Shown piece after piece: positions 24,934-37,635 of a stretch of 64,000 nucleotides of DNA. A program made the translations under genes and the position numbers. The stretch is from positions 1,240,001 to 1,304,000 of the forward strand of contig NZ_CP051261.1 in assembly GCF_014236855.1 (NCBI RefSeq), in the 5' to 3' direction. A model generated the notes under the pieces. That model saw nothing but the letters and a program-made list of their open reading frames with translations. It was not told the DNA's origin and made no database searches. Every line of letters begins with the position of its first letter. Within the stretch, counting starts at the first letter, position 1. The stretch comes from Xanthomonas sp. SI. GTDB taxonomy: Bacteria > Pseudomonadota > Gammaproteobacteria > Xanthomonadales > Xanthomonadaceae.

Positions 24934-26193
24934 TTATCCAACGACGGAGGCCAGCTTGAAGATGGGCAGATACATGCCGATCACCATGCCGCCGACGATG
25001 GTACCAATGAACACCATGATCAGCGGCTCGATCAGGCTGCTCAACGCATCCACCGCATTGTTCACTTCCTGCTCGAAGTACTCGGCCACCTTGAACAGCA
25101 TCGCATCCAGCGCACCGGCCTCTTCGCCGATCGCGGTCATCTGGATGACCATGTGCGGAAACAGGTTGGTTTGCTTCATCGCTACGTTGACCGGGTAGCC
25201 TACCGAGACGTCGTCTCGCATGCGCAACACCGCTTTCTCGTAGACGCTGTTGCCGGTGGCGCCGGCGACGATGTCCAAGGCCTCCACCAACGGAACGCCG
25301 GCGCGGAAGGTCACGCCCAGAGTCCGCGAGAAGCGCGCTACGGAGCTGTTATGCATGATCTGGCCGATGATCGGCACTTTCAGGATCAGCCGGTCCATGC
25401 CGTGCTGCATCGACGGCGAGCGCTTGTAGGCGAAGATGAAGCCGACGATAGTGCCTATCAGCACGAGCAACAGCATCCACCAATAGGCGACCATGAAGCG
25501 CGACGCGGCCACGATCATTTGGGTAAACGCGGGCAACTCTGCGCCAAAGCCCTTGAAAACGTCCTCGAACTGCGGCACTACCCAGACTAGCAGGATCGAA
25601 CTCACAAGCAGCGCCACCGCCATGACCATGGCCGGATAGAACAGCGCCTTCTTGATCTTGCCCTTCAGCGCTTCGATGTTTTCCTTATAGGTCGCCACCG
25701 TCTCCAGCACGGTCTCCAGCACGCCGGCGCCTTCGCCGGCCTTGACCAGATTGCGGTAAAGCTCGTCGAACTGGATCGGGTGCTTGCTGATCGCTTCATA
25801 GAGCGACGAGCCACCCTCGATGTCGGTGCGGACCTGATCCACCATCTTCTTCATGCGCGGGTTCTTGTGCCCGCTGCCGATGATTTCCAGCGACCCCACG
25901 ATGGGAACGCCCGACTTCATCATCGTCGCCATCTGGCGGCTGAAAAAGGCGATGTCCTTTGCGCTGATCTTGCTGCCGGCTGAGCCGAACAGCGGCTTGG
26001 GCTTGGGCTTGACCACCGAGGGCGTGATGCCCTGGCGGCGCAGCTCGGCGCGCAGCAGGTTGGCGTTCTTGGCGGTCTGCTCGCCCTTCATCTTGACGCC
26101 GCGCTTGTCCGTCCCTTCCCAGACGAACGGCAACTGCTGGCTGGTATTGCGTGCGACGGGCTCTTTGGGTACTGCGCTACGAGTTGCGGACAT
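24934..26193 (-). CDS. pilC: Type IV pilus inner-membrane platform protein PilC
   Basis: Polytopic platform protein of the GspF/PilC family, 419 residues, which couples the PilB motor to the growing pilin helix. Two homologous cytoplasmic halves ([20 protein letters not shown] and [20 protein letters not shown]) are each followed by membrane segments, and the C-terminus has [20 protein letters not shown]. The ATG at 26193 ([10 protein letters not shown]) has GGGGAGCAC upstream; the open frame extends to 26277 but lacks a site there. Divergent from pilA. Confidence 0.97.
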
Positions 26194-26575: not shown

Positions 26576-26980
26576 ATGAAGAAGCAGCAGGGCTTTACCC
26601 TGATCGAACTGATGATCGTCGTCGCGATCATCGCCATCCTGGCCGCCATCGCGCTGCCGGCCTACCAGAACTACGTGCGCAAGTCGCAGGTCACCGCGGC
26701 CCTGTCCGACATCACCCCGGGCAAGACGCAGTTCGAAGTCAAGATCAACGAAGGCAGCGGTTTTGGCACCACGGGCAGCGCCGTTGGTCTGCAGAACACC
26801 ACCAGCCGTTGTTCCGCGATCACTGTCAGCCCGAGCGACACCGGCAACATCACCTGCACCATGATTGGTGGCGCCGGTGTGGGCGGCACCACGATTGCCT
26901 GGACGCGTAACGCTTCCGGCAACTGGACCTGTTCCACCACTGCGGATGCTAAGTACCGTCCCAGCACCTGCGCGCAGTAA
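26576..26980 (+). CDS. pilA: Type IV major pilin PilA
   Basis: Structural pilin of 134 residues. The leader MKKQQG is cut before Phe1 of [20 protein letters not shown], with Glu5 and Pro22 conserved. Four cysteines in the globular domain (SRCSA, ITCTM, WTCST, STCAQ) can form two disulfides, and the chain ends AQ. The ATG at 26576 follows TCTAGGGGATTCACC. It is expressed from a sigma-54 promoter and ended by a strong terminator at 26993, so it can be made in excess of the second pilin downstream. Confidence 0.97.
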
Positions 26981-26992
26981 TAATTGTTGCCT

Positions 26993-27026
26993 AAAAAGGC
27001 CCCGCCGTGGCGGGGCCTTTTTTTTT
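26993..27026 (+). terminator. Strong intrinsic terminator after pilA
   Basis: AAAGGCCCCGCC and GGCGGGGCCTTT form a GC-rich hairpin followed by eight or more Ts. It separates pilA from the second pilin gene and the island. Confidence 0.92.
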
Positions 27027-27062
27027 ACCGATAAGCCGTCATCGAGCCTAGGGGGGAGCGAG

Positions 27063-27485
27063 ATGGGCGTTTCAAAAGAAAAAATACATGGTTTCACTCT
27101 GGTGGAACTTATGATTGTTGTCGCTATCGTCGCGATCTTGGCCGCCATCGCGTTGCAGGGGTACGCAATGTATGTGAGCAGATCGCAAGTTGTGGCAGGG
27201 CTCGACGAAATCAGGGGTGGAAAAATGGGCGTCGAGTTGGCGCTCAATGAAGGACACGCTGCAGACGTGGATGCCGCTTATATCGGGTTGCAAGCATCCA
27301 CACCGCGCTGCTCTACGACAACGGCCTTGCTTTCGGCGACTGGCGAGGGATCGATATCGTGCACTTTGCGCGGCAACGATGGAGTCGCAGGCAGAGACAT
27401 CAGGTTGCTGCGTAGTGCCTCTGGATATTGGGCTTGTGATGCCGGCGGATTGCCAGCAAGCTATCGGCCCGATGGTTGCAGCTAA
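27063..27485 (+). CDS. Second type IV pilin-like protein (Pro22 replaced by Gln)
   Basis: A 140-residue pilin. The leader MGVSKEKIHG precedes [20 protein letters not shown], with Glu5 present. The usual Pro22 is Gln (LQGYAMYV where PilA has LPAYQNYV). Four cysteines occupy the same relative positions as in PilA (PRCST, ISCTL, WACDA, DGCS), so the folds are probably alike, and the C-terminal residue is Ser. The ribosome site GGGGGGAG precedes the ATG. Base composition drops from here onward, marking the left side of the island. It may be an alternative major pilin or a minor subunit. Confidence 0.92.
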   Translation: MGVSKEKIHGFTLVELMIVVAIVAILAAIALQGYAMYVSRSQVVAGLDEIRGGKMGVELALNEGHAADVDAAYIGLQASTPRCSTTTALLSATGEGSISCTLRGNDGVAGRDIRLLRSASGYWACDAGGLPASYRPDGCS

Positions 27486-27528
27486 CGTGGCTCACTCGCG
27501 CGTCGAAATGGTTCTGGATAGGTAAATA

Positions 27529-29433
27529 ATGCCTAAAATAATTCTTGAAAAGAGTGGTTCTGGATGGCTTTTTTGGCCGATGGGCGTGATCGTTGCATTG
27601 GCAGCCATGCTTGTGTACTGGCCAGGTCTTTCTGGCCCTTTTGTTTTTGATGACTACTCGAATATTGTAACCAATGCCAGAATTCACGCGCAGCGTTTGG
27701 ATTTGTCGAGTTTGATCGAGGCAGCCAAGGCGTACGAGCCAGGGAAAATAGGCAGGCCGCTAGCTACTGTGAGTTTTGCAATAAATTACTATTTCTCTGG
27801 CGATGACCCCTGGGCCTACAAGCTAACCGGAGTGGTCATTCACGGCATTAATGCGCTTTTAGTGTTTGCTTTACTTTTGAGCCTCGTGAAGGCCCGGTCG
27901 CTAAGTCGACATAATAGTGTTGTGTTTTGCGCGGTAGTGGCTATTTTTTGGGCAATACATCCGCTGCAGGTGTCGACTGTTCTCTACGTCGTGCAGCGAA
28001 TGGAAATTCTTTCGCTTACATTCGTGCTTGCCGGATTGATATTGTACGTTGCTGGCCGTCGCCGGCAGATTGAAGGTGGGAGCGGTAGCTGGTTTGTATT
28101 GCTTTCGGCCATGGTCGCCGGAGTAGGTTTGGCCTCAAAAGAGACGGCTGCACTTTTTCCCTTGTACGTGCTCGCGCTGGAGTTGACTGTCTTGTGCTTT
28201 GATGCACAGGACGCGCGAATAACCCGGTTCTACAAGCTATTCTATCTTCTGGTCGCGACGCTTGGCGCTATCGTGTTTTTTGCGTGGATAATTCCGTCCG
28301 CGATCGCGGATGGGGCCTTCAGCAATCGTAGCTTCAGCTTGATCGAGCGTCTGCTGAGTCAGCTTAGAATAATCCCAATGTATCTCGGGCAAATAGTGCT
28401 GCCGATTCCTTCGCGGCTGCCCTTTTACTATGATGCATATCCGAAGTCCACGGGTCTATTCTCTCCCGCAACGACTGCGCTGGGTGGTGCCCTGCTTCTC
28501 AGCCTTTTGGCCGCCGCTTGGATTGTTCGAAAAAAAATGCCGCTTTTCTCGCTCGGCATTCTTTGGTTCTTTTCTGCGCATTTCTTGACAAGCAATGTAC
28601 TCAATCTAGAGTTGGCATTTGAACATCGCAACTATTTCGCTATTCTGGGGGTCTTGCTGGCAATCGGTGATCTGGTCAGCAGAATCCGGCTTCGAGATGG
28701 TCCCGCACTCAAGTACGTCGCTTTGGGGGCGGTACTAATAACGGTGACGTGCCTTTCTTTGATCCGCTCAGCGACTTGGGGCAACGAGCTCTTGCTGCGT
28801 AATGAACTGGTTGACATAAATCCGAACTCCCCTCGTGCTGGGAGCGATCTTGCTGCGCTGCTAGTCGCCATGGCCAATGGTGATCCGACCTCGCCGTTTT
28901 ACAGCATGGGTAGGCAGCAGTTTGAGCGCGTTGCGAGCTTGCCTGGGTCCTCGCCTCTGGCCGAGCAGGGCTTGATCTTAATGGCGGCTGTGCACGGGCA
29001 GCCAGTGGAAGATGCTTGGTGGGAGACTCTGACTCGGAAAGTAAGGAGTCGGCCGCTCTCGCCTGAAGAACTGATGGCGGTAAGTGGATTGCTGAAGCAG
29101 CGATATGAGGGCGTGCAGCTCGACGACTCTAAATTGTCCAGTGCATATATGGCATTGTTGGACAGAAAGCCAGAACAAGCGTTTCTATATGCCCAGTTCG
29201 GGGACTATGCGTTGAGATATCTGCGAGATGAGAATCTGGCAGACAGGATGTTTGTCGAGGCGTTAAATCATTCGACGAACGACAAGGCTTATGCACATAT
29301 CGTCCTTTCGGGATTGTTGAAAGATGGGCACGTGCGGCAAGCTGAGAAAGTCTTCTTGCGTGGTAGACAGCTTGGGCTCTTTGAAGCGGGTGAGTTGCCT
29401 GTTGGCAAGTCGCCGTCGACAACGGCGCAATAA
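27529..29433 (+). CDS. GT-C-like polytopic membrane protein, candidate pilin glycosyltransferase
   Basis: A 634-residue protein with about ten membrane helices in its first 400 residues and a soluble C-terminal helical region with TPR-like repeats (FLYAQFGDYALRYL, ADRMFVEALNHS, AEKVFLRGRQLGLF). The first periplasmic loop carries VFDDYSNIV near residue 36, the paired-acid motif expected of GT-C glycosyltransferases such as the TMTC and PMT families, and ASKETAALFPLYVLALE resembles the same group. It starts 43 bases after the second pilin. In P. aeruginosa, genes beside pilA (tfpO, tfpW) encode pilin glycosyltransferases; by position and fold I infer a similar role. Low GC relative to the flanks. 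Confidence 0.7.
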   Translation: MPKIILEKSGSGWLFWPMGVIVALAAMLVYWPGLSGPFVFDDYSNIVTNARIHAQRLDLSSLIEAAKAYEPGKIGRPLATVSFAINYYFSGDDPWAYKLTGVVIHGINALLVFALLLSLVKARSLSRHNSVVFCAVVAIFWAIHPLQVSTVLYVVQRMEILSLTFVLAGLILYVAGRRRQIEGGSGSWFVLLSAMVAGVGLASKETAALFPLYVLALELTVLCFDAQDARITRFYKLFYLLVATLGAIVFFAWIIPSAIADGAFSNRSFSLIERLLSQLRIIPMYLGQIVLPIPSRLPFYYDAYPKSTGLFSPATTALGGALLLSLLAAAWIVRKKMPLFSLGILWFFSAHFLTSNVLNLELAFEHRNYFAILGVLLAIGDLVSRIRLRDGPALKYVALGAVLITVTCLSLIRSATWGNELLLRNELVDINPNSPRAGSDLAALLVAMANGDPTSPFYSMGRQQFERVASLPGSSPLAEQGLILMAAVHGQPVEDAWWETLTRKVRSRPLSPEELMAVSGLLKQRYEGVQLDDSKLSSAYMALLDRKPEQAFLYAQFGDYALRYLRDENLADRMFVEALNHSTNDKAYAHIVLSGLLKDGHVRQAEKVFLRGRQLGLFEAGELPVGKSPSTTAQ

Positions 29434-29523
29434 AATGAAGTAACTTTTCCCAAGTAACTAGGGACGTGCGGCCAAGGCCAAGCGTATGAGTGTCGCGCTT
29501 AATCACGCAGTTGAGATGATAAA

Positions 29524-30684
29524 ATGACAGCGGCGAATGATTTTCTCGTTTTTGGGTCTCCCCTAATCCAAGAGGAAGAGATTGAGGAGGTTGTTGCTTG
29601 CATGAAGTCGAGCTGGCTTGGAACCGGCCCCCGGGTTGCTCGCTTCGAATCCGAATTCTCGTTCTATAAAGGAGTCGATGCTTCTCATGTGGCGGCGGTT
29701 AACTCATGCACTGCGGCACTGCATGTCAGCATGATTGCGGCTGGCTTGGAGCCAGGGGCAGAGGTGATAACTACGCCATTGACTTTTTGCGCCACTGTCA
29801 ACGCGATAATCCATGCGGGGCTCACTCCGGTGCTTGCGGATGTAGACCTGCGGACGCAGTGCATTTCCCCTGAGGCTATTGAACGTGCGATTACCTCAAG
29901 AACGCGCGCTATCCTGATTGTTCATTTTGCCGGCAGGCCTTGCGAGATGGATGAGGTCATGAAAGTCGCTGAAAGGCATGGGTTAATAGTGATAGAGGAC
30001 TGCGCTCACGCCATCGAAACGGAATTCCATGGCCGGAAAGCCGGTACCTTTGGTGACTTTGGTTGCTTCAGTTTTTACGCGACAAAGAATATTACCACTG
30101 GCGAAGGCGGGATGGTTATTGGAAAGAACGAAAGTGCCATTTCTAGGGTGCGCGTTCTAGCGTTGCATGGGATGAGTAAAGATGCTTGGCATCGATTTGG
30201 TGATGATGGGTACAAACACTATCAAGTAGTGGAGGCCGGCTTTAAGTACAACATGATGGATTTGCAGGCTGCCATTGGAGTTCATCAGTTGGCAAGGGTG
30301 GCGCCCAGCTGGCGACTCCGACAGTTAATTTGGAGCCGATACATGGAGGAGCTTTCGGATCTGCCGATCACTTTGCCGCTTCCACCTGCGCTGAATACGG
30401 TGCACGGTTATCATCTCTTTACGGTGATGATCGATCCGAAAAAATGCGGAATATCTCGGGATGCATTCCTGGGGGAAATGAACGCTAGAAGAATTGGCAC
30501 TGGCGTGCATTATCTTTCGGTTCCTGAGCACCCATATTATCAGGGGCGATTTGGTTGGAAGCCTGAGGCGTGGCCGAACGCCATGGAGATAGGGCGCAAT
30601 ACTGTCAGTCTTCCCCTTTCTCCAAAGCTTACGCATGGGGATGTTGGTCGTGTTATTGACGCAGTGCATTCTATTTTGATGTAG
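29524..30684 (+). CDS. DegT/DnrJ/EryC1/StrS-family aminotransferase
   Basis: PLP enzyme of 386 residues that aminates keto-sugars during synthesis of amino sugars for surface glycans. The cofactor Lys188 lies in SFYATKNITTGEGG, and Asp159 in VIEDCAHAIE would contact the pyridine nitrogen. SSWLGTGPRVARFE and SCTAALHVSM are standard. It follows the GT-C-like gene by 90 bases on the same strand. Its end overlaps the end of the convergent ATP-grasp gene by 14 bases. No sugar dehydratase or epimerase is in the island, so its keto-sugar must come from elsewhere. Confidence 0.93.
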   Translation: MTAANDFLVFGSPLIQEEEIEEVVACMKSSWLGTGPRVARFESEFSFYKGVDASHVAAVNSCTAALHVSMIAAGLEPGAEVITTPLTFCATVNAIIHAGLTPVLADVDLRTQCISPEAIERAITSRTRAILIVHFAGRPCEMDEVMKVAERHGLIVIEDCAHAIETEFHGRKAGTFGDFGCFSFYATKNITTGEGGMVIGKNESAISRVRVLALHGMSKDAWHRFGDDGYKHYQVVEAGFKYNMMDLQAAIGVHQLARVAPSWRLRQLIWSRYMEELSDLPITLPLPPALNTVHGYHLFTVMIDPKKCGISRDAFLGEMNARRIGTGVHYLSVPEHPYYQGRFGWKPEAWPNAMEIGRNTVSLPLSPKLTHGDVGRVIDAVHSILM

Positions 30685-31903
30685 TTCTGAAGATCCTGCG
30701 AAGATGGCCTCGGATCAGTCGTTGTTTTATTCCGGGAGATGAGGTTCCAAAGCCGGCTATTGTGGTTGACGCTTTGGTGAGCGAGCCTAGGATCTGTAAT
30801 GCGAGCGCCGGTGGGCAACTTCCGGTAATGAGTGCCATTAGAAATCGTTCAATTTGGACCCATTGATGATTCTTGGCGGAAGTTGATTCTTTCGGTAAGC
30901 TTTTTCCGCGCAAAGCCAAGATTGCTTTGTCCAAAATCGGAACTCCGGCACTTTCAATCAGGCCGATTTGTAGCCATGGCCTGGTGTTTAACTCAATCAT
31001 ATGCGGTTTCCCGCTCCCGTCTGGTAGATGCGCGAGCTCGCAGATACCTACTATTTCCAGTGCTTCCATAAGATTGCTTGCCGGGGAAAGAAGATCTGTC
31101 GTTTCTTCGGTGGAGACCCAATAAGCCGTTCCCCCCATTGCGGGATGCTTGGCCTTTTCAACTACTTGGTTGGCGTGGACGTAACCATTGGTATCACGAA
31201 CTGCGCAGACGCTTCGCTCTTGACTTGACCCTGTGACGAGACGAGGTTGTGCAATCCAACGTTCGCTAACTGACCATGCTCTGGTGAGGCGATTGACTAT
31301 AGAAGACGCATTTTCCTTGTGGTCTTGCCTTGTAACTACTTTCGTACCGCCTCCGCCAAGCGGAGACAAGTCCATGTGTATAGGCTTTAAGGCCGGCTTG
31401 AAGATGGCGTCCGGCCCGAGTTTTTCTAGGGCAAGGATCGCCTGCTCGGGGCCATCCAGCACGATTGAAGTGGCGAGATAGTCGCTTGCGCAATGCTTCA
31501 GTGAAAATTCGACTAGTTCTGCTTTGTCGAGTCCTCCCATTTTTAGGGCTCGAGCTCGCGAAAACTCGCCATATCTCAGGACATCATCTCGGCATTCGTT
31601 TAGCAGGCGAAGTCCGCCATCTTCCGTAGGAAAGATGGGTAGCTTTTCTCCCGCCAGAGCGGTTGCGTGCATTAGCGCCTTAAGGAAACCGTCTTGGAGT
31701 GCGTTCCAGTCTTCTAACAGAGGCGAGAGGTCCATGAAGTCGATACAGCCAGGCGCATTTTTTAATAGGCTGTGAGGCACTAGAGAGAAAACCGCATAGT
31801 TTCTCCCTGCGATATGGGCTGCTTCAGCCAAGGCTAGCCCAACAATCTCTGATCCTCCACTTATAATCAGAAGTTCGGGCACGGGGAGATCACGATTTTT
31901 CAT
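30671..31903 (-). CDS. ATP-grasp ligase, island operon
   Basis: A 410-residue carboxylate-amine ligase-like protein. The N-terminal Rossmann-like lobe (ELLIISGGSEIVGLALAEAA) resembles carbamoyl-phosphate-synthase-like and D-aspartate-ligase proteins. Central segments PDAIFKPALKP and GGGGTKVVTRQ correspond to the ATP-grasp lid, and HMIELNTRPWLQIGL holds the metal-binding E-x-N. Its start overlaps the methyltransferase stop by 14 bases. It is the last gene of the leftward operon. A role in joining an amino acid or acid to an amino sugar is plausible; the substrate is unknown. Confidence 0.8.
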   Translation of the reverse strand: MKNRDLPVPELLIISGGSEIVGLALAEAAHIAGRNYAVFSLVPHSLLKNAPGCIDFMDLSPLLEDWNALQDGFLKALMHATALAGEKLPIFPTEDGGLRLLNECRDDVLRYGEFSRARALKMGGLDKAELVEFSLKHCASDYLATSIVLDGPEQAILALEKLGPDAIFKPALKPIHMDLSPLGGGGTKVVTRQDHKENASSIVNRLTRAWSVSERWIAQPRLVTGSSQERSVCAVRDTNGYVHANQVVEKAKHPAMGGTAYWVSTEETTDLLSPASNLMEALEIVGICELAHLPDGSGKPHMIELNTRPWLQIGLIESAGVPILDKAILALRGKSLPKESTSAKNHQWVQIERFLMALITGSCPPALALQILGSLTKASTTIAGFGTSSPGIKQRLIRGHLRRIFRTTSK

Positions 31904-32588
31904 AGATGAAAAGATAATTGTAGTAACTAAGCCGAGATGGCATGCGCTTCTTTGCCATGCGCTTCAATTCCCACTCTGCGATCGCCGCAAGCCAATGTGT
32001 TGGGATGAGCCCATATCGAATTAGATAGACTACCGGCCATCGGCTATTGCGGATCGGTAGCTTTAGCACTCTTCGCAGCCCGTTACGAGCAAAGGTCTCG
32101 TCGAACCATGGCTCTTGGAGGTAGCGCCCATCACCAACCTTAAGGTTGTCAATGACCGCCAACTGTCCTCCAGGCTTGACCAATCTGGGGGCGCTGCGGC
32201 AGATATCAGCCTTGCCTAAAAGGAGCGTCATGCGCGCGACTCCAAAAAGGCAGACCAAATCGAATGATTCGTCACGGAACGGAAGCTGAGGAAGCGAGGC
32301 ATTGAGGATCCCTGCATATCTTGATTTCTCAGGCATCGCACGGAGTATGCGTAAAGATGGATCTAGGCCAACTACGCTGTAGCCGATTCTTCCCAGGGCT
32401 TCACCCATCCGGCCTAGTCCGCACCCTACGTCCAACGCGTAGCCAGTTCCAGGCTTCAAATACTTCTCAAGTGCCCGCTGCTGTAATAGTTGAATGTAGT
32501 CACTTTTTCTTCCGAGTCGATCATGGGGGTCTGCTAAGTTGTTCCCATGGTCGTCAAACGCTGGGACGTTTGCACGGTCGGCACTCAT
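31890..32588 (-). CDS. SAM-dependent methyltransferase, island operon
   Basis: Class I methyltransferase of 232 residues. The SAM-binding loop is ALDVGCGLGRMGEALGRIG (from residue 51), then VVGLDPSLRIL, LPFRDESFDLVCLFGVARM and LVKPGGQLAVIDNL. The start at 32588 overlaps the stop of the upstream flippase-like gene as ATGA. The C-terminal part is basic (LKRMAKKRMPSRLSYYNYLF) and could contact the membrane. It may methylate a sugar or lipid-linked intermediate, given its neighbours. Confidence 0.88.
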   Translation of the reverse strand: MSADRANVPAFDDHGNNLADPHDRLGRKSDYIQLLQQRALEKYLKPGTGYALDVGCGLGRMGEALGRIGYSVVGLDPSLRILRAMPEKSRYAGILNASLPQLPFRDESFDLVCLFGVARMTLLLGKADICRSAPRLVKPGGQLAVIDNLKVGDGRYLQEPWFDETFARNGLRRVLKLPIRNSRWPVVYLIRYGLIPTHWLAAIAEWELKRMAKKRMPSRLSYYNYLFIYEKS

Positions 32589-33505
32589 GAGCGCACCCGA
32601 TACGGCGCGAAGATCAATCCGAGTGAAATGTCTGCTATCAATAGTGATATCCGCCCTAGGACAGCTAGGCCAGCGACCGCATCGGAAGGGAAGTGACTGG
32701 CCATCAGCACGAACATCAGTTCTCGAACGCCAATTCCAGAGGGAGTTATCAGGCTGATGTACCCGACGAACCATGCGGCAGTATATATGCCGCACAACCA
32801 TATTCCATCGACGGCGGTTAGACCGGGCCAAGCGACACCATAGGCAGACCACGCCAACAAATAGACTAGCCAGCTTGCAGTGAGCCAGGCCCAAACCTCC
32901 CCTTTTAGCCGCGCAGAGGCTGTAGCGAACGGCCTTAGTGCATCGCATAGGCGGGCTACGGCTCGGCTCGGTATTCGTCTTGCTAGATCAAGTGCCGCAT
33001 TAATGGGGCGGGGATGCCAGCAGTACGCATATATAACCGACCCTGTGCCGAGCAACGCGAGTCCAAGCCACCAATGGAGCATCGTGCCGACTACCGTAAT
33101 AGAGATCCATATAGCGAAAGCTGTAGTTAATGCCATGTAGGTCGCGTTGACACTGATCCACTCCGCAAGAGTGGCTGATGTTCCTGTGCCCGATTGATAG
33201 GCGATACCCCAGACGCGTCCGGGGAGGTGCTTCATCAGTTGGCCGGTAAAGTAGAGATGTGCCAACGTCGTACGCTTATAGAGATTTTGTCGCATCTCCC
33301 TGAACAGAGTGTGGAATCCCTCGAATGCCAAATAGCTGGATATTGGCACTCCTATCAATGCTAGGGACAGCCAGCCGATTCGCAGGCGCGGAATGCTCTT
33401 GCTCAGCGATGGAAGTGAATCCCATAGCAGCCAGCCAGCCCACATCATTGAGGCAAGTGCGAGCGGAGCAAATAGCCATCGCCAGCGGCTGCGTCGATCA
33501 GTCAT
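32585..33505 (-). CDS. Flippase-like membrane protein, lysylphosphatidylglycerol-synthase TM (UPF0104) family
   Basis: A 306-residue protein with about eight membrane helices. The block HLPGRVWGIAYQ resembles the KxLPGxxG motif of this family, and LITPSGIGVREL matches the conserved (T/P)SGIGVRE loop. Members occur in glycan clusters beside glycosyltransferases, where they are thought to move or handle lipid-linked substrates. It shares ATGA overlaps or near-overlaps with both neighbours, so all of the leftward island genes form one operon. Confidence 0.85.
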   Translation of the reverse strand: MTDRRSRWRWLFAPLALASMMWAGWLLWDSLPSLSKSIPRLRIGWLSLALIGVPISSYLAFEGFHTLFREMRQNLYKRTTLAHLYFTGQLMKHLPGRVWGIAYQSGTGTSATLAEWISVNATYMALTTAFAIWISITVVGTMLHWWLGLALLGTGSVIYAYCWHPRPINAALDLARRIPSRAVARLCDALRPFATASARLKGEVWAWLTASWLVYLLAWSAYGVAWPGLTAVDGIWLCGIYTAAWFVGYISLITPSGIGVRELMFVLMASHFPSDAVAGLAVLGRISLLIADISLGLIFAPYRVRS

Positions 33506-34646
33506 TAGTCACCAGCGAACTGTACACTTTCGCGGCAATGTCGGAGATGTCGAATTGGGCCGCGAGTTCCCGAATTCCAGACGAAAGATCATAAGGGGAT
33601 GAAAGCAATGCAGCTTCCATGGCCTTATGGAAAGACTTTGCGCTCAGATCCTTGGCAACCACCCCGCCAGTTTTGCCCTGCAAAAGAGCAGGGAGATCGC
33701 CTACGGGTGTGGCTATTACTGGACATTTTAGTTTCATTGCATCGGAAAAGACCACTGGAATGCTCTCTATTCTTGATGGGATGAGTAGCCAGTCAGCATC
33801 GATTATTGCCTCCTCTGCTGACTCGCGATCAAGGAAGCCGCTCAGAAGCACGGGCCGGCCTGCTTCGCTCAGCCTCCTTATGTTGGATTCGACTTCCCTT
33901 TGCAGGGGGCCTCCACCGCAAATCCGAATTTTTTTGATTCTCTTCCATTGATTCTCGGTCAATAGGTCAATGGCTTCAAAAAGAAGGTCGATTCCCTTGT
34001 TGGGATGCCAGCGGCCTAGGAAAAGCAGGCTGTATGGCGGGCATTCGCTAAGTGGCTGGTTACGGCTACGAGAGGTGCGCCGTGTGCTGGGCAATAGGTG
34101 AACTTCTCGCCCAGCTATGGCTTCGGTATCGTGAGCCAGTTTCAATCCGTCAGACCAACAGTGTTTGGCGTTTCTGAGTACTTTGCGCAGGAAAGATCTA
34201 ACTATTGGTATACGTCCCAGGCTCCATATGTCACTTCCCAGCGTCCATACAGAGTAGTTGACTCCGTATTTTTGCGCGCAGGATCTGGCCCATTCTCCAC
34301 AAGGCAGCGCCCAAAGCGCTAGAATATGTTGCACACATCCCTCATCCAATGCCGCCTCGGTCGCCAAATATCCAGCACGCATCACATTTGCAATCCTCCA
34401 TGCGTCAGCGGGATTCAATGGGTTGAGGGTTGATAGAGGACGCTCGGGGGTGGGGTAACGAAAGATTTCGATACTTTCGCACCATAGTTCTTTGGTTTTT
34501 TTGGGGCCTGGTGCTACGACGCGCACGTTCACTAACTTGCCTAGTTCAATGGCGAAGTCAGCAACAAATGCGCCGGCTGCTTCGCTTCCGTCACCCGAAG
34601 TCGGAAAGGATGAGGTGATGATCACGACGGTGCAGGGTTTTGTCAT
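33498..34646 (-). CDS. Glycosyltransferase family 4 (GT-B)
   Basis: A 382-residue cytosolic or membrane-associated GT-B enzyme. The N-terminal domain starts TVVIITSSFPTSGDGSEAAG; the nucleotide-sugar domain has LLFLGRWHPNKGIDLLFEA, GGGPLQREVE, LLSGFLDRE and the donor-binding loop SRIESIPVVFSDAMKLKCPV, where Glu-x7-Glu is reduced to E-x7-D. The stop overlaps the flippase-like gene by 8 bases; the start overlaps the 80-residue ORF stop as ATGA. Confidence 0.92.
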   Translation of the reverse strand: MTKPCTVVIITSSFPTSGDGSEAAGAFVADFAIELGKLVNVRVVAPGPKKTKELWCESIEIFRYPTPERPLSTLNPLNPADAWRIANVMRAGYLATEAALDEGCVQHILALWALPCGEWARSCAQKYGVNYSVWTLGSDIWSLGRIPIVRSFLRKVLRNAKHCWSDGLKLAHDTEAIAGREVHLLPSTRRTSRSRNQPLSECPPYSLLFLGRWHPNKGIDLLFEAIDLLTENQWKRIKKIRICGGGPLQREVESNIRRLSEAGRPVLLSGFLDRESAEEAIIDADWLLIPSRIESIPVVFSDAMKLKCPVIATPVGDLPALLQGKTGGVVAKDLSAKSFHKAMEAALLSSPYDLSSGIRELAAQFDISDIAAKVYSSLVTND

Positions 34647-34885
34647 GGTCGGTAGGCCTTAAGACCATCCTTCGGAGCTGGCGGTGCGCAAATGTCCATC
34701 TGGCGGGTTGGCGCATCTGCAGCAGCAATGTTCACCCTTCTCGGTCGGTACAACATGTCTAGCGCCAGGGCGTGTGCATGCTGCCAATCTATATTCCTAG
34801 GCTCGAATTGCCGAGCAGTCGTTGCCGATGAAAAGGGATCTATGAAAGGCGTTTCAACCATAGGCAAAAAGCACTGCGAGTGCAT
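34643..34885 (-). CDS. Hypothetical 80-residue protein inside the island operon
   Basis: A short open frame fitting exactly between the two glycosyltransferase genes: two bases after the GT2 stop and overlapping the GT4 start as ATGA. No hydrophobic segment and no known motif; two Cys, several His and many Pro residues. The tight packing supports translation, but the composition could equally be a gene remnant kept in frame for coupling. Confidence 0.45.
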   Translation of the reverse strand: MHSQCFLPMVETPFIDPFSSATTARQFEPRNIDWQHAHALALDMLYRPRRVNIAAADAPTRQMDICAPPAPKDGLKAYRP

Positions 34886-34887
34886 GC

Positions 34888-35745
34888 TCAGGCGTCGCGT
34901 CTATACGTCAGATTGGTAATCTGCTCGGAAATTAGGCCGATCAGAAAAATGATCACCGCCGCACTGAACAACAGGGTGCTCATATTGGTGAATCGGTGCA
35001 TCGTCGCGAAGGTGTAGCCATAGTAGGTGAGTCCAAGGGCGAAGAACGCCATCGAGACCGGGACGAACAGCTTCAGCGGCGAATACAGCGTGGCGATCTT
35101 GAAGATGATCAGCAGGAAGCGGATGCCGTCCTTCATGGGGCGGATATGACTGCCGTTACCGACGCGCTTCGCGACGGGGATCGGCACGTAGGCGACCGGA
35201 TAGGCGCTTCGAAAGAACGCCATCGTGCTGGTGGTGGGGTAACTGAACCCATTCGGGAGCAGGTGCAGGAATTCGCGAAACCTGTCAGCGCGGACGGCGC
35301 GAAAGCCTGAGGTGAGGTCCTTCACTTCGAAGCCGGTCATGCGGCTCGCCAGCCAGTTGTAGAAGCGGTTGGCGAGGCCGCGATGCACGCTGGCCTGGCC
35401 GCTGCTGTCGCGTGCGCCGACGACCATGTCGTAGCCCTGGCCAAGCACAGCGAGCAGTTTCTGGATATCGCCGGGATCGTGTTGGCCGTCAGCATCCATG
35501 AACACGAGGATGTTGCCGGTAGCGGCCCGTGCGCCGCGTTTGATCGCAGCGCCGTTACCCATCGAGTAGGGGCTGCCGATGACCCGGGCGCCCTGGTCGC
35601 GCGCCACCTGCGCGGTCGCATCGGTAGAGCCGTCGTCGACCACGATGATCTCGGCATCCGGCATTTCCTCACGCAGCCGGGGCAGCGTACGCGACAGGCC
35701 GGCCACCTCGTTCTTGGCCGGCAGGATGATGCTGATCTTGTCCAA
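34888..35745 (-). CDS. Glycosyltransferase family 2, polyprenyl-phosphate type (DPM1/ArnC-like)
   Basis: A 285-residue GT-A enzyme with two C-terminal membrane helices (about 222-245 and 255-277). The nucleotide-binding DDGS (residues 37-40) and metal-binding DADGQHD (84-90) are complete, and SGFRAVRADRFREFL is typical of dolichol/undecaprenyl-phosphate transferases. It probably loads a sugar onto a polyprenyl phosphate carrier for use by the membrane-bound GT-C protein. First gene of the leftward operon. GC is intermediate between the island and pilB, which begins 150 bases away in the opposite direction. Confidence 0.92.
   Translation of the reverse strand: MDKISIILPAKNEVAGLSRTLPRLREEMPDAEIIVVDDGSTDATAQVARDQGARVIGSPYSMGNGAAIKRGARAATGNILVFMDADGQHDPGDIQKLLAVLGQGYDMVVGARDSSGQASVHRGLANRFYNWLASRMTGFEVKDLTSGFRAVRADRFREFLHLLPNGFSYPTTSTMAFFRSAYPVAYVPIPVAKRVGNGSHIRPMKDGIRFLLIIFKIATLYSPLKLFVPVSMAFFALGLTYYGYTFATMHRFTNMSTLLFSAAVIIFLIGLISEQITNLTYRRDA

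Positions 35746-35895: not shown

Positions 35896-37635
<1,740 letters not shown>

Follow-up and report, generated by a model that had tools for sequence, protein, structure and literature searches.

A probable pilin glycosylation locus with exchangeable contents between pilC and pilB in Xanthomonas and its relatives

The DNA analysed here is a 64,000-nucleotide stretch (the window) from the 5.25 Mb, single-contig genome of Xanthomonas sp. SI, in which a block of low guanine-plus-cytosine content (GC) lies between the type IV pilus genes pilA and pilB. This locus is in our view quite likely a pilin glycosylation locus with exchangeable contents. Its most likely product is an unusual sugar, perhaps with an amino-acid cap, that would be attached to pilin. 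Two convergent gene chains were found in the block (Table 1). The rightward chain encodes a second pilin, a membrane protein of the GT-C fold and a DegT aminotransferase, and the leftward chain encodes a GT2 glycosyltransferase, an 80-residue open reading frame (ORF), a GT4 glycosyltransferase, a UPF0104-like membrane protein, a methyltransferase and an ATP-grasp protein. The leftward genes are joined by overlaps of 4-14 bp and one 2-bp gap, and the DegT and ATP-grasp ORFs converge and share 14 bp. A preliminary description of this DNA had given the same ORFs, gene order, two facing operons and close leftward linkage, and our ORF list agrees with it. In what follows, L-numbers denote loci and G-numbers genomes of the comparison set.

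The locus is tied to the type IV pilus, which is well supported by a survey of 149 genomes from 54 genera of the family searched with a GT-C profile. Matches were obtained in 75 genomes and 34 genera, with a total of 104 copies. Of the 75 genomes, 74 have a copy no more than 30 kb from pilB and the remaining one has it on another contig; 101 of the 104 copies are located upstream of pilB on its strand. The ATP-grasp gene was detected in six of the 149 genomes (the window's included; strongly in five) and always lies between GT-C and pilB. Among the named loci, which are the best 80 of at least 476 relatives and are biased to close relatives, 78 have enough upstream DNA; a pilin occurs within 900 bp upstream of the leading GT-C gene in 74 of these. 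Two or more pilins were observed in 53 named loci, and GT2 stands on the opposite strand directly before pilB in 29 of the 38 that include pilB. Surface polysaccharide clusters typically carry GT4, methyltransferase, DegT and flippase-like genes, and such a set would also fit an O-antigen or exopolysaccharide cluster inserted by chance between pilA and pilB, as would a Wzx-like protein found in another type of interior (type B below; PF01943, 26.3 bits against a cut-off of 28.2). We regard this explanation as highly improbable. The recurrence of GT-C beside pilB across 34 genera, the ATP-grasp gene within the interval in all six genomes and the pilin directly upstream of GT-C argue against it, and neither the window proteins nor 30 scanned proteins of other loci, which represent part of the interior genes, matched a polymerase or O-antigen ligase family. 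The preliminary description had named a position far from pilin loci, in an O-antigen cluster, as the finding that would speak against pilin modification; the two genes searched for, GT-C and ATP-grasp, were found near pilB instead, in the counts given above.

Our comparison of 20 Xanthomonas-group genomes, a check that the preliminary description had proposed, shows that the interval between pilC and pilB is variable and that relatives carry differently stocked versions of the locus at the same chromosomal place. The interval was retrieved from 19 genomes besides the window's. A GT-C relative is present in nine of the 20, always with GT2 in the same interval, and the remaining 11 intervals hold neither gene. 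The nine cassette loci are 7.1-12.0 kb long and the other 11 intervals 0.9-2.9 kb, and two pilins occur in all nine (eight by motif and L017 by reading). GT2 is 87-98% identical among the nine loci. The interior families were scanned on one representative per cluster, and four types were observed. Type A (the window and L017) contains DegT, ATP-grasp, methyltransferase, UPF0104-like and GT4 genes; type B (L011, L025, L026) several GT4 genes, FkbM-type and other methyltransferases and the Wzx-like protein; type C (L016, L020, L021) GT4, UPF0104 and methyltransferase genes, where the UPF0104 counterpart matches PF03706 at 62.8 bits; and type D (L027) GT4 genes, a methyltransferase and an asparagine-synthase-like protein. 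The last of these (L027:11126-13027, minus strand) would be another possible amide-forming step. One cassette-free interval of 2.9 kb (L014, genome G005) includes an ORF which, judged by its N-terminal motif, we take to resemble a REP-associated transposase.

The block is imported and exchangeable, and its base composition sets its limits. In the flanks GC is about 0.60-0.72, and it drops to 0.50-0.55 across roughly 27-35 kb, the interval from pilC/pilA to pilB. The drop after the pilA terminator was therefore confirmed as first described, but recovery comes earlier than pilB: codon-position GC places the imported part at about 27063-34885, and the GC-poor block proper stops at about 34885. 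GT2 has a GC of 0.62 and a third-position GC (GC3) of 0.82, resembling pilA, pilC and pilB (GC3 0.83-0.91), and the remaining island genes have a GC3 of 0.49-0.57. The pilA terminator itself was recovered by direct reading and folding as a hairpin followed by a T-run, although a consensus terminator scanner did not report it; the T-run version was found in eight of the nine genus cassette loci and a hairpin without T-run in the ninth (L027).

Distances between the proteins were compared by Mantel tests; in the 33-locus set one GT2 identity of 0.00, which must reflect a faulty translation or alignment, was retained. The nearer pilin and GT-C were found to co-vary (r 0.77 over 21 loci and 0.53 over 33 loci, hardly altered when pilB was controlled), a pattern that neighbouring genes can also acquire by transfer together without functional need. 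GT-C co-varies with each of the two upstream pilins, and more strongly with the nearer. GT2 instead follows pilB (r 0.59), and GT-C against GT2 given pilB gave r 0.14 (p 0.105). From these correlations it appears that the pilin and its transferase travel together, that GT2 stays with the backbone and that the interior is swapped, so that the locus behaves less like the single cassette of the preliminary description than like three parts: a module of pilin and GT-C, an interior that can be exchanged, and a GT2 gene going with pilB. The same data bear on general periplasmic O-glycosylation, in which GT-C would modify many proteins including pilin. The GT-C model resembles STT3 and PMT, and related enzymes such as PMT act on many targets; we nevertheless consider a general system unlikely, since GT-C co-varies with the adjoining pilin and not significantly with GT2 given pilB, and about half of the family genomes searched lack GT-C.

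The individual proteins suggest how such a locus might work. The structure model of the window GT-C shows the membrane fold of GT-C enzymes, and its first periplasmic loop contains acidic residues; no Pfam family, including the Wzy_C/PglL domain, matched it at E<=0.1. Its motifs presumably resemble those of the TMTC enzymes; a relation to these eukaryotic proteins was considered and dropped, as no Pfam model matched and a literature search gave no paper on such a relation. GT2 matches ArnC and dolichol-phosphate mannose synthase, and its best NCBIfam match is AglJ (TIGR04182; E 9.1e-36, 123.7 bits, under the cut-off of 325). DegT scores 346.7 against ArnB (cut-off 631) and 324.8 against PseC (cut-off 423.5), and the name ArnB was rejected because its score is under the curated cut-off. 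RmlB (TIGR01181) is over its cut-off in all six genomes searched, so dTDP-4-keto-6-deoxyglucose should be available, and it is our preferred candidate substrate for DegT. A C-terminal serine of the pilin was rejected as the glycosylation site, being inconsistent across loci. From these assignments we infer the following order of steps. GT2 would put the first sugar on polyprenyl phosphate. With the genes of the present interior, DegT would aminate a nucleotide 4-keto sugar, the ATP-grasp protein would acylate the new amine, perhaps with an amino acid, and the methyltransferase would add a methyl group. GT4 would then link this completed sugar to the one on the lipid, the UPF0104-like protein would flip the product, and GT-C, with its helical-repeat tail, would move it to the pilin encoded just upstream.

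The ATP-grasp assignment rests on structure prediction, as the sequence search gave a sub-threshold Pfam hint only. The AlphaFold2 (AF2) model has a predicted local distance difference test score (pLDDT) of 94.5, and its top Foldseek matches are biotin carboxylase and PurK (E 5.5e-19 and <1e-16, template-modelling score ~0.6). Residues E304, N306 and R308, which form the E-x-N-x-R metal/ATP motif conserved in ATP-grasp ligases, are invariant in 42 sequences. In a wider sample from the class, one of 369 genomes matched at E<=1e-30, namely the window's own, and another listing holds 81 related proteins under names that include Roseateles and Comamonas. A close DegT (at least 60% identity) was found in 14 of the 85 loci examined; 11 loci have both this DegT and the GT4 family termed GT4a, three only GT4a, three only DegT and 68 neither. 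In L099, L100 and L122 the close DegT gene, without a GT4a partner, lies between GT2 and pilB and not beside GT-C. Sister cassettes with a close DegT were observed to contain a GNAT protein with a flavoprotein (L064 of Lysobacter aestuarii, L065, L073 of Stenotrophomonas terrae, L115), a GNAT protein without a recognised flavoprotein (L087, L120) or a hexapeptide acyltransferase (L072), and the GNAT or hexapeptide acyltransferase may fill the ATP-grasp part there. Because the sisters swap in these other plausible amine-acylating enzymes, we read the ATP-grasp protein as an N-acylation step that would act on an amino sugar, and the amino sugar of the preliminary description gains support from this exchange.

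A clue to the acyl group comes from two relatives. Both G116 and G046 carry a glutamate racemase gene that either overlaps the ATP-grasp gene or lies immediately next to it, in the same orientation. No other glutamate racemase in the 149 family genomes scored over the curated cut-off, and the co-occurrence with ATP-grasp has a Fisher p of 0.0014. Several genera of the group are described, in excerpts of PMC8788868, as making cell-wall D-glutamate through MurD2/MurL without D-glutamate-forming genes. As 147 of the 149 genomes lack such a racemase, the two are best read as serving the cassette, and the ATP-grasp substrate in G116 and G046 is probably glutamate. For the window, glutamate would be an extrapolation, since no racemase lies by its cassette and none is over the cut-off (D-amino-acid aminotransferases were not searched), and the amino-acid cap first proposed gains its support from the two relatives.

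The fullest version of the pathway can be offered only tentatively. The constant GT2 and the exchangeable GT4 enzymes would assemble a whole oligosaccharide on polyprenyl monophosphate, with a glutamate-capped amino sugar (D-glutamate where the cassette has a racemase), and the GT-C inherited with the pilin would transfer it en bloc. In a two-branch route, GT2 and GT-C would instead put a single lipid-monophosphate sugar on pilin, and the GT4/DegT/ATP-grasp sugar would use another carrier or be added separately. GT-C enzymes of the ArnT and PMT types use lipid-phosphate monosaccharides, which is consistent with two branches, as is the evolution of GT2 with pilB rather than with GT-C. This route is a possibility to be taken seriously, even if we think it improbable: we recognised only one protein glycosyltransferase in the window cassette, and the ATP-grasp, methyltransferase, UPF0104-like and GT4 block is kept between pilC and pilB even in L145, where the block is rearranged.

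Several observations weigh against a dedicated pilin glycosylation locus with an N-acylated amino sugar. The second pilin is not peculiar to the cassette, as two pilins occur in the cassette-free intervals L015 and L024. No ATP-grasp, GNAT or hexapeptide match was found in four of the 14 close-DegT loci (L099, L100, L122, L128), and three loci with such a match lack a close DegT. G046 also lacks a close DegT, its best being 32% identical and on another contig, and the window has no racemase, as noted above. The ATP-grasp match has a stop codon in G109 and is partial in G131. In addition, a methyltransferase of about 240 residues, expected at the place of the 80-residue ORF, is absent in the ATP-grasp loci L145 and L146.

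That ORF shares 4 bp with GT4, and a methyltransferase of about this length was observed at the same place in L017, L064, L072, L073, L147 and L148. Its codon score of 0.06 per codon compares with -0.26 to -0.01 for the remaining five frames, and a search retrieved no relative except itself. It was considered as a remnant of the sister methyltransferase and this was rejected, as there is no significant similarity and it has no relatives. An orphan ORF where several sisters have a methyltransferase and the stop codon in G109 would both fit a decaying island without present function. We give this explanation very little credence, as the rest of the window block consists of unbroken reading frames, short overlaps couple those of the leftward chain, and the ATP-grasp, methyltransferase, UPF0104-like and GT4 genes recur jointly in five other genomes. 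The true start of the window methyltransferase is probably near 32591 rather than 32948, by comparison with its counterpart in L017.

The named loci include Pseudomonas toyotomiensis, P. chengduensis, Roseateles and Solimonas, and these carriers suggest spread between genera. Carriage on plasmids was considered and dropped, as the 8.7-kb block had no megablast match among 72,556 plasmid records. At least two GT-C genes were observed in 41 of the 80 named loci (for example L083, L094-L096 and L103-L108), mostly in tandem after the pilins; such loci occur in Rhodanobacter, Dyella, Luteibacter, Lysobacter and other relatives, with three copies in L138, and a division of labour between tandem GT-Cs is possible. 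A xanthomonad-like block of pilin, GT-C, GT2, pilB, pilC and pilD was also noticed on a contig labelled MAG Rhizobium sp. (L075), which is possibly mis-binned or transferred.

Table 1. Features of the pilC-pilB interval in the window and racemase genes of related cassettes
Feature	Coordinates	Strand	Evidence and remarks
pilC	24934..26193	-	left border of variable interval; tblastn anchor in 20/20 genus loci; start set by eye at MSATRS
pilA, first pilin	26576..26980	+	Pfam PF00114 and PF07963 over cut-off; prepilin motif
Terminator-like hairpin and T-run between pilA and second pilin	26997..27028	+	direct reading, folding
Second pilin, candidate acceptor	27063..27485	+	PF00114 69.1 bits (cut-off 22)
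GT-C-fold membrane protein with helical-repeat tail; presumed pilin glycosyltransferase/oligosaccharyltransferase	27529..29433	+	634 residues
DegT/ArnB-like sugar aminotransferase	29524..30684	+	PF01041 400.6 bits; nearest solved relatives ArnB
ATP-grasp-like ligase, presumed N-acylation (amino-acid) ligase	30671..31903	-	AF2 model, Foldseek
S-adenosylmethionine (SAM) methyltransferase	31890..32591	-	PF08241 55 bits; about 233 residues; listed ORF reaches 32948
UPF0104/LPG_synthase_TM-like membrane protein, presumed flippase	32585..33505	-	PF03706 21.4 bits, under cut-off 33.4
GT4 glycosyltransferase	33498..34646	-	PF13692 72.7 bits; co-occurs with close DegT
80-residue orphan ORF	34643..34885	-	codon score; place of methyltransferase in several sister cassettes
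GT2, presumed polyprenyl-phosphate sugar transferase, constant part	34888..35745	-	PF00535 112.3 bits
pilB, right border	35896..37635	+	present in 20/20 genus genomes; start by reading
Glutamate racemase in pilus cassette	L148:7336-8130	-	beside ATP-grasp
Glutamate racemase in pilus cassette	L146:3615-4505	-	beside ATP-grasp

Pili are phage receptors and host-contact organs, and the benefit of the locus would most likely be a changed pilus surface as seen by phages or hosts. A pilin paired with its own transferase while the sugar-making genes are exchanged would offer a natural experiment in how the cell surface varies across a large family, with many GT-C enzymes and a presumed single kind of acceptor. 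The racemases do not readily fit an ordinary cell-wall role, and they give a sharp chemical prediction of what an uncharacterised ATP-grasp family uses as substrate. Excerpts of PMC4235730, PMC5217246 and PMC4584326 report that pilA varies in Xanthomonas. The accessible parts of the PglL paper PMC3643930 do not mention Xanthomonas, and in the accessible parts of the open-licence PMC literature no paper was found to treat this locus as one for pilin glycosylation. In X. vesicatoria BNM 214/216 the pilB-pilC interval holds an EamA gene and two gtf genes, for which no function is proposed in the excerpts of PMC10333488; the chromosomal place and the combination of pilin with glycosyltransferases are the same, but the gene set differs.

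Three known systems resemble parts of the proposed pathway. In haloarchaea, transferases of the AglJ pathway extend a lipid-monophosphate sugar before GT-C-type transfer. The best NCBIfam match of GT2 and the presumed extension of such a sugar by further transferases recall this route, although the GT2 score is under the AglJ cut-off, the present locus is bacterial and its linkage to pilin is presumed. The viosamine island of Pseudomonas syringae, as described in excerpts of PMC3927599, uses an aminotransferase, N-acylation, a methyltransferase and a sugar transferase to make an N-acylated, O-methylated 4-amino sugar, and thus has the same enzyme kinds and an amino sugar for a surface filament. 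It differs in acting on flagellin, in its N-acylation by vioB with acyl-carrier genes and in having no ATP-grasp, GT-C or lipid-carrier gene among the seven tabled (PMC3927599). In P. aeruginosa, pilin receives O-antigen units through TfpO and D-arabinofuranose through TfpW; there too an accessory glycosyltransferase adjoins the pilin, a terminator lies between them and the cassette differs with pilin type (excerpts of PMC11841053). We found the same arrangement here, with a glycosyltransferase directly downstream of a pilin (window 27063-29433; 74 of 78 loci) and a terminator between the major pilin and the accessory gene in eight of the nine genus cassette loci. In P. aeruginosa the donor sugar is made elsewhere in the genome; the present locus instead brings its own GT2, tailoring, GT4 and flippase-like genes, and its transferase follows two pilins. 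Its logic is therefore that of the P. aeruginosa accessory glycosyltransferases and its chemistry resembles the viosamine cap, and what would be new, if true, is the en bloc monophosphate route together with the glutamate cap.

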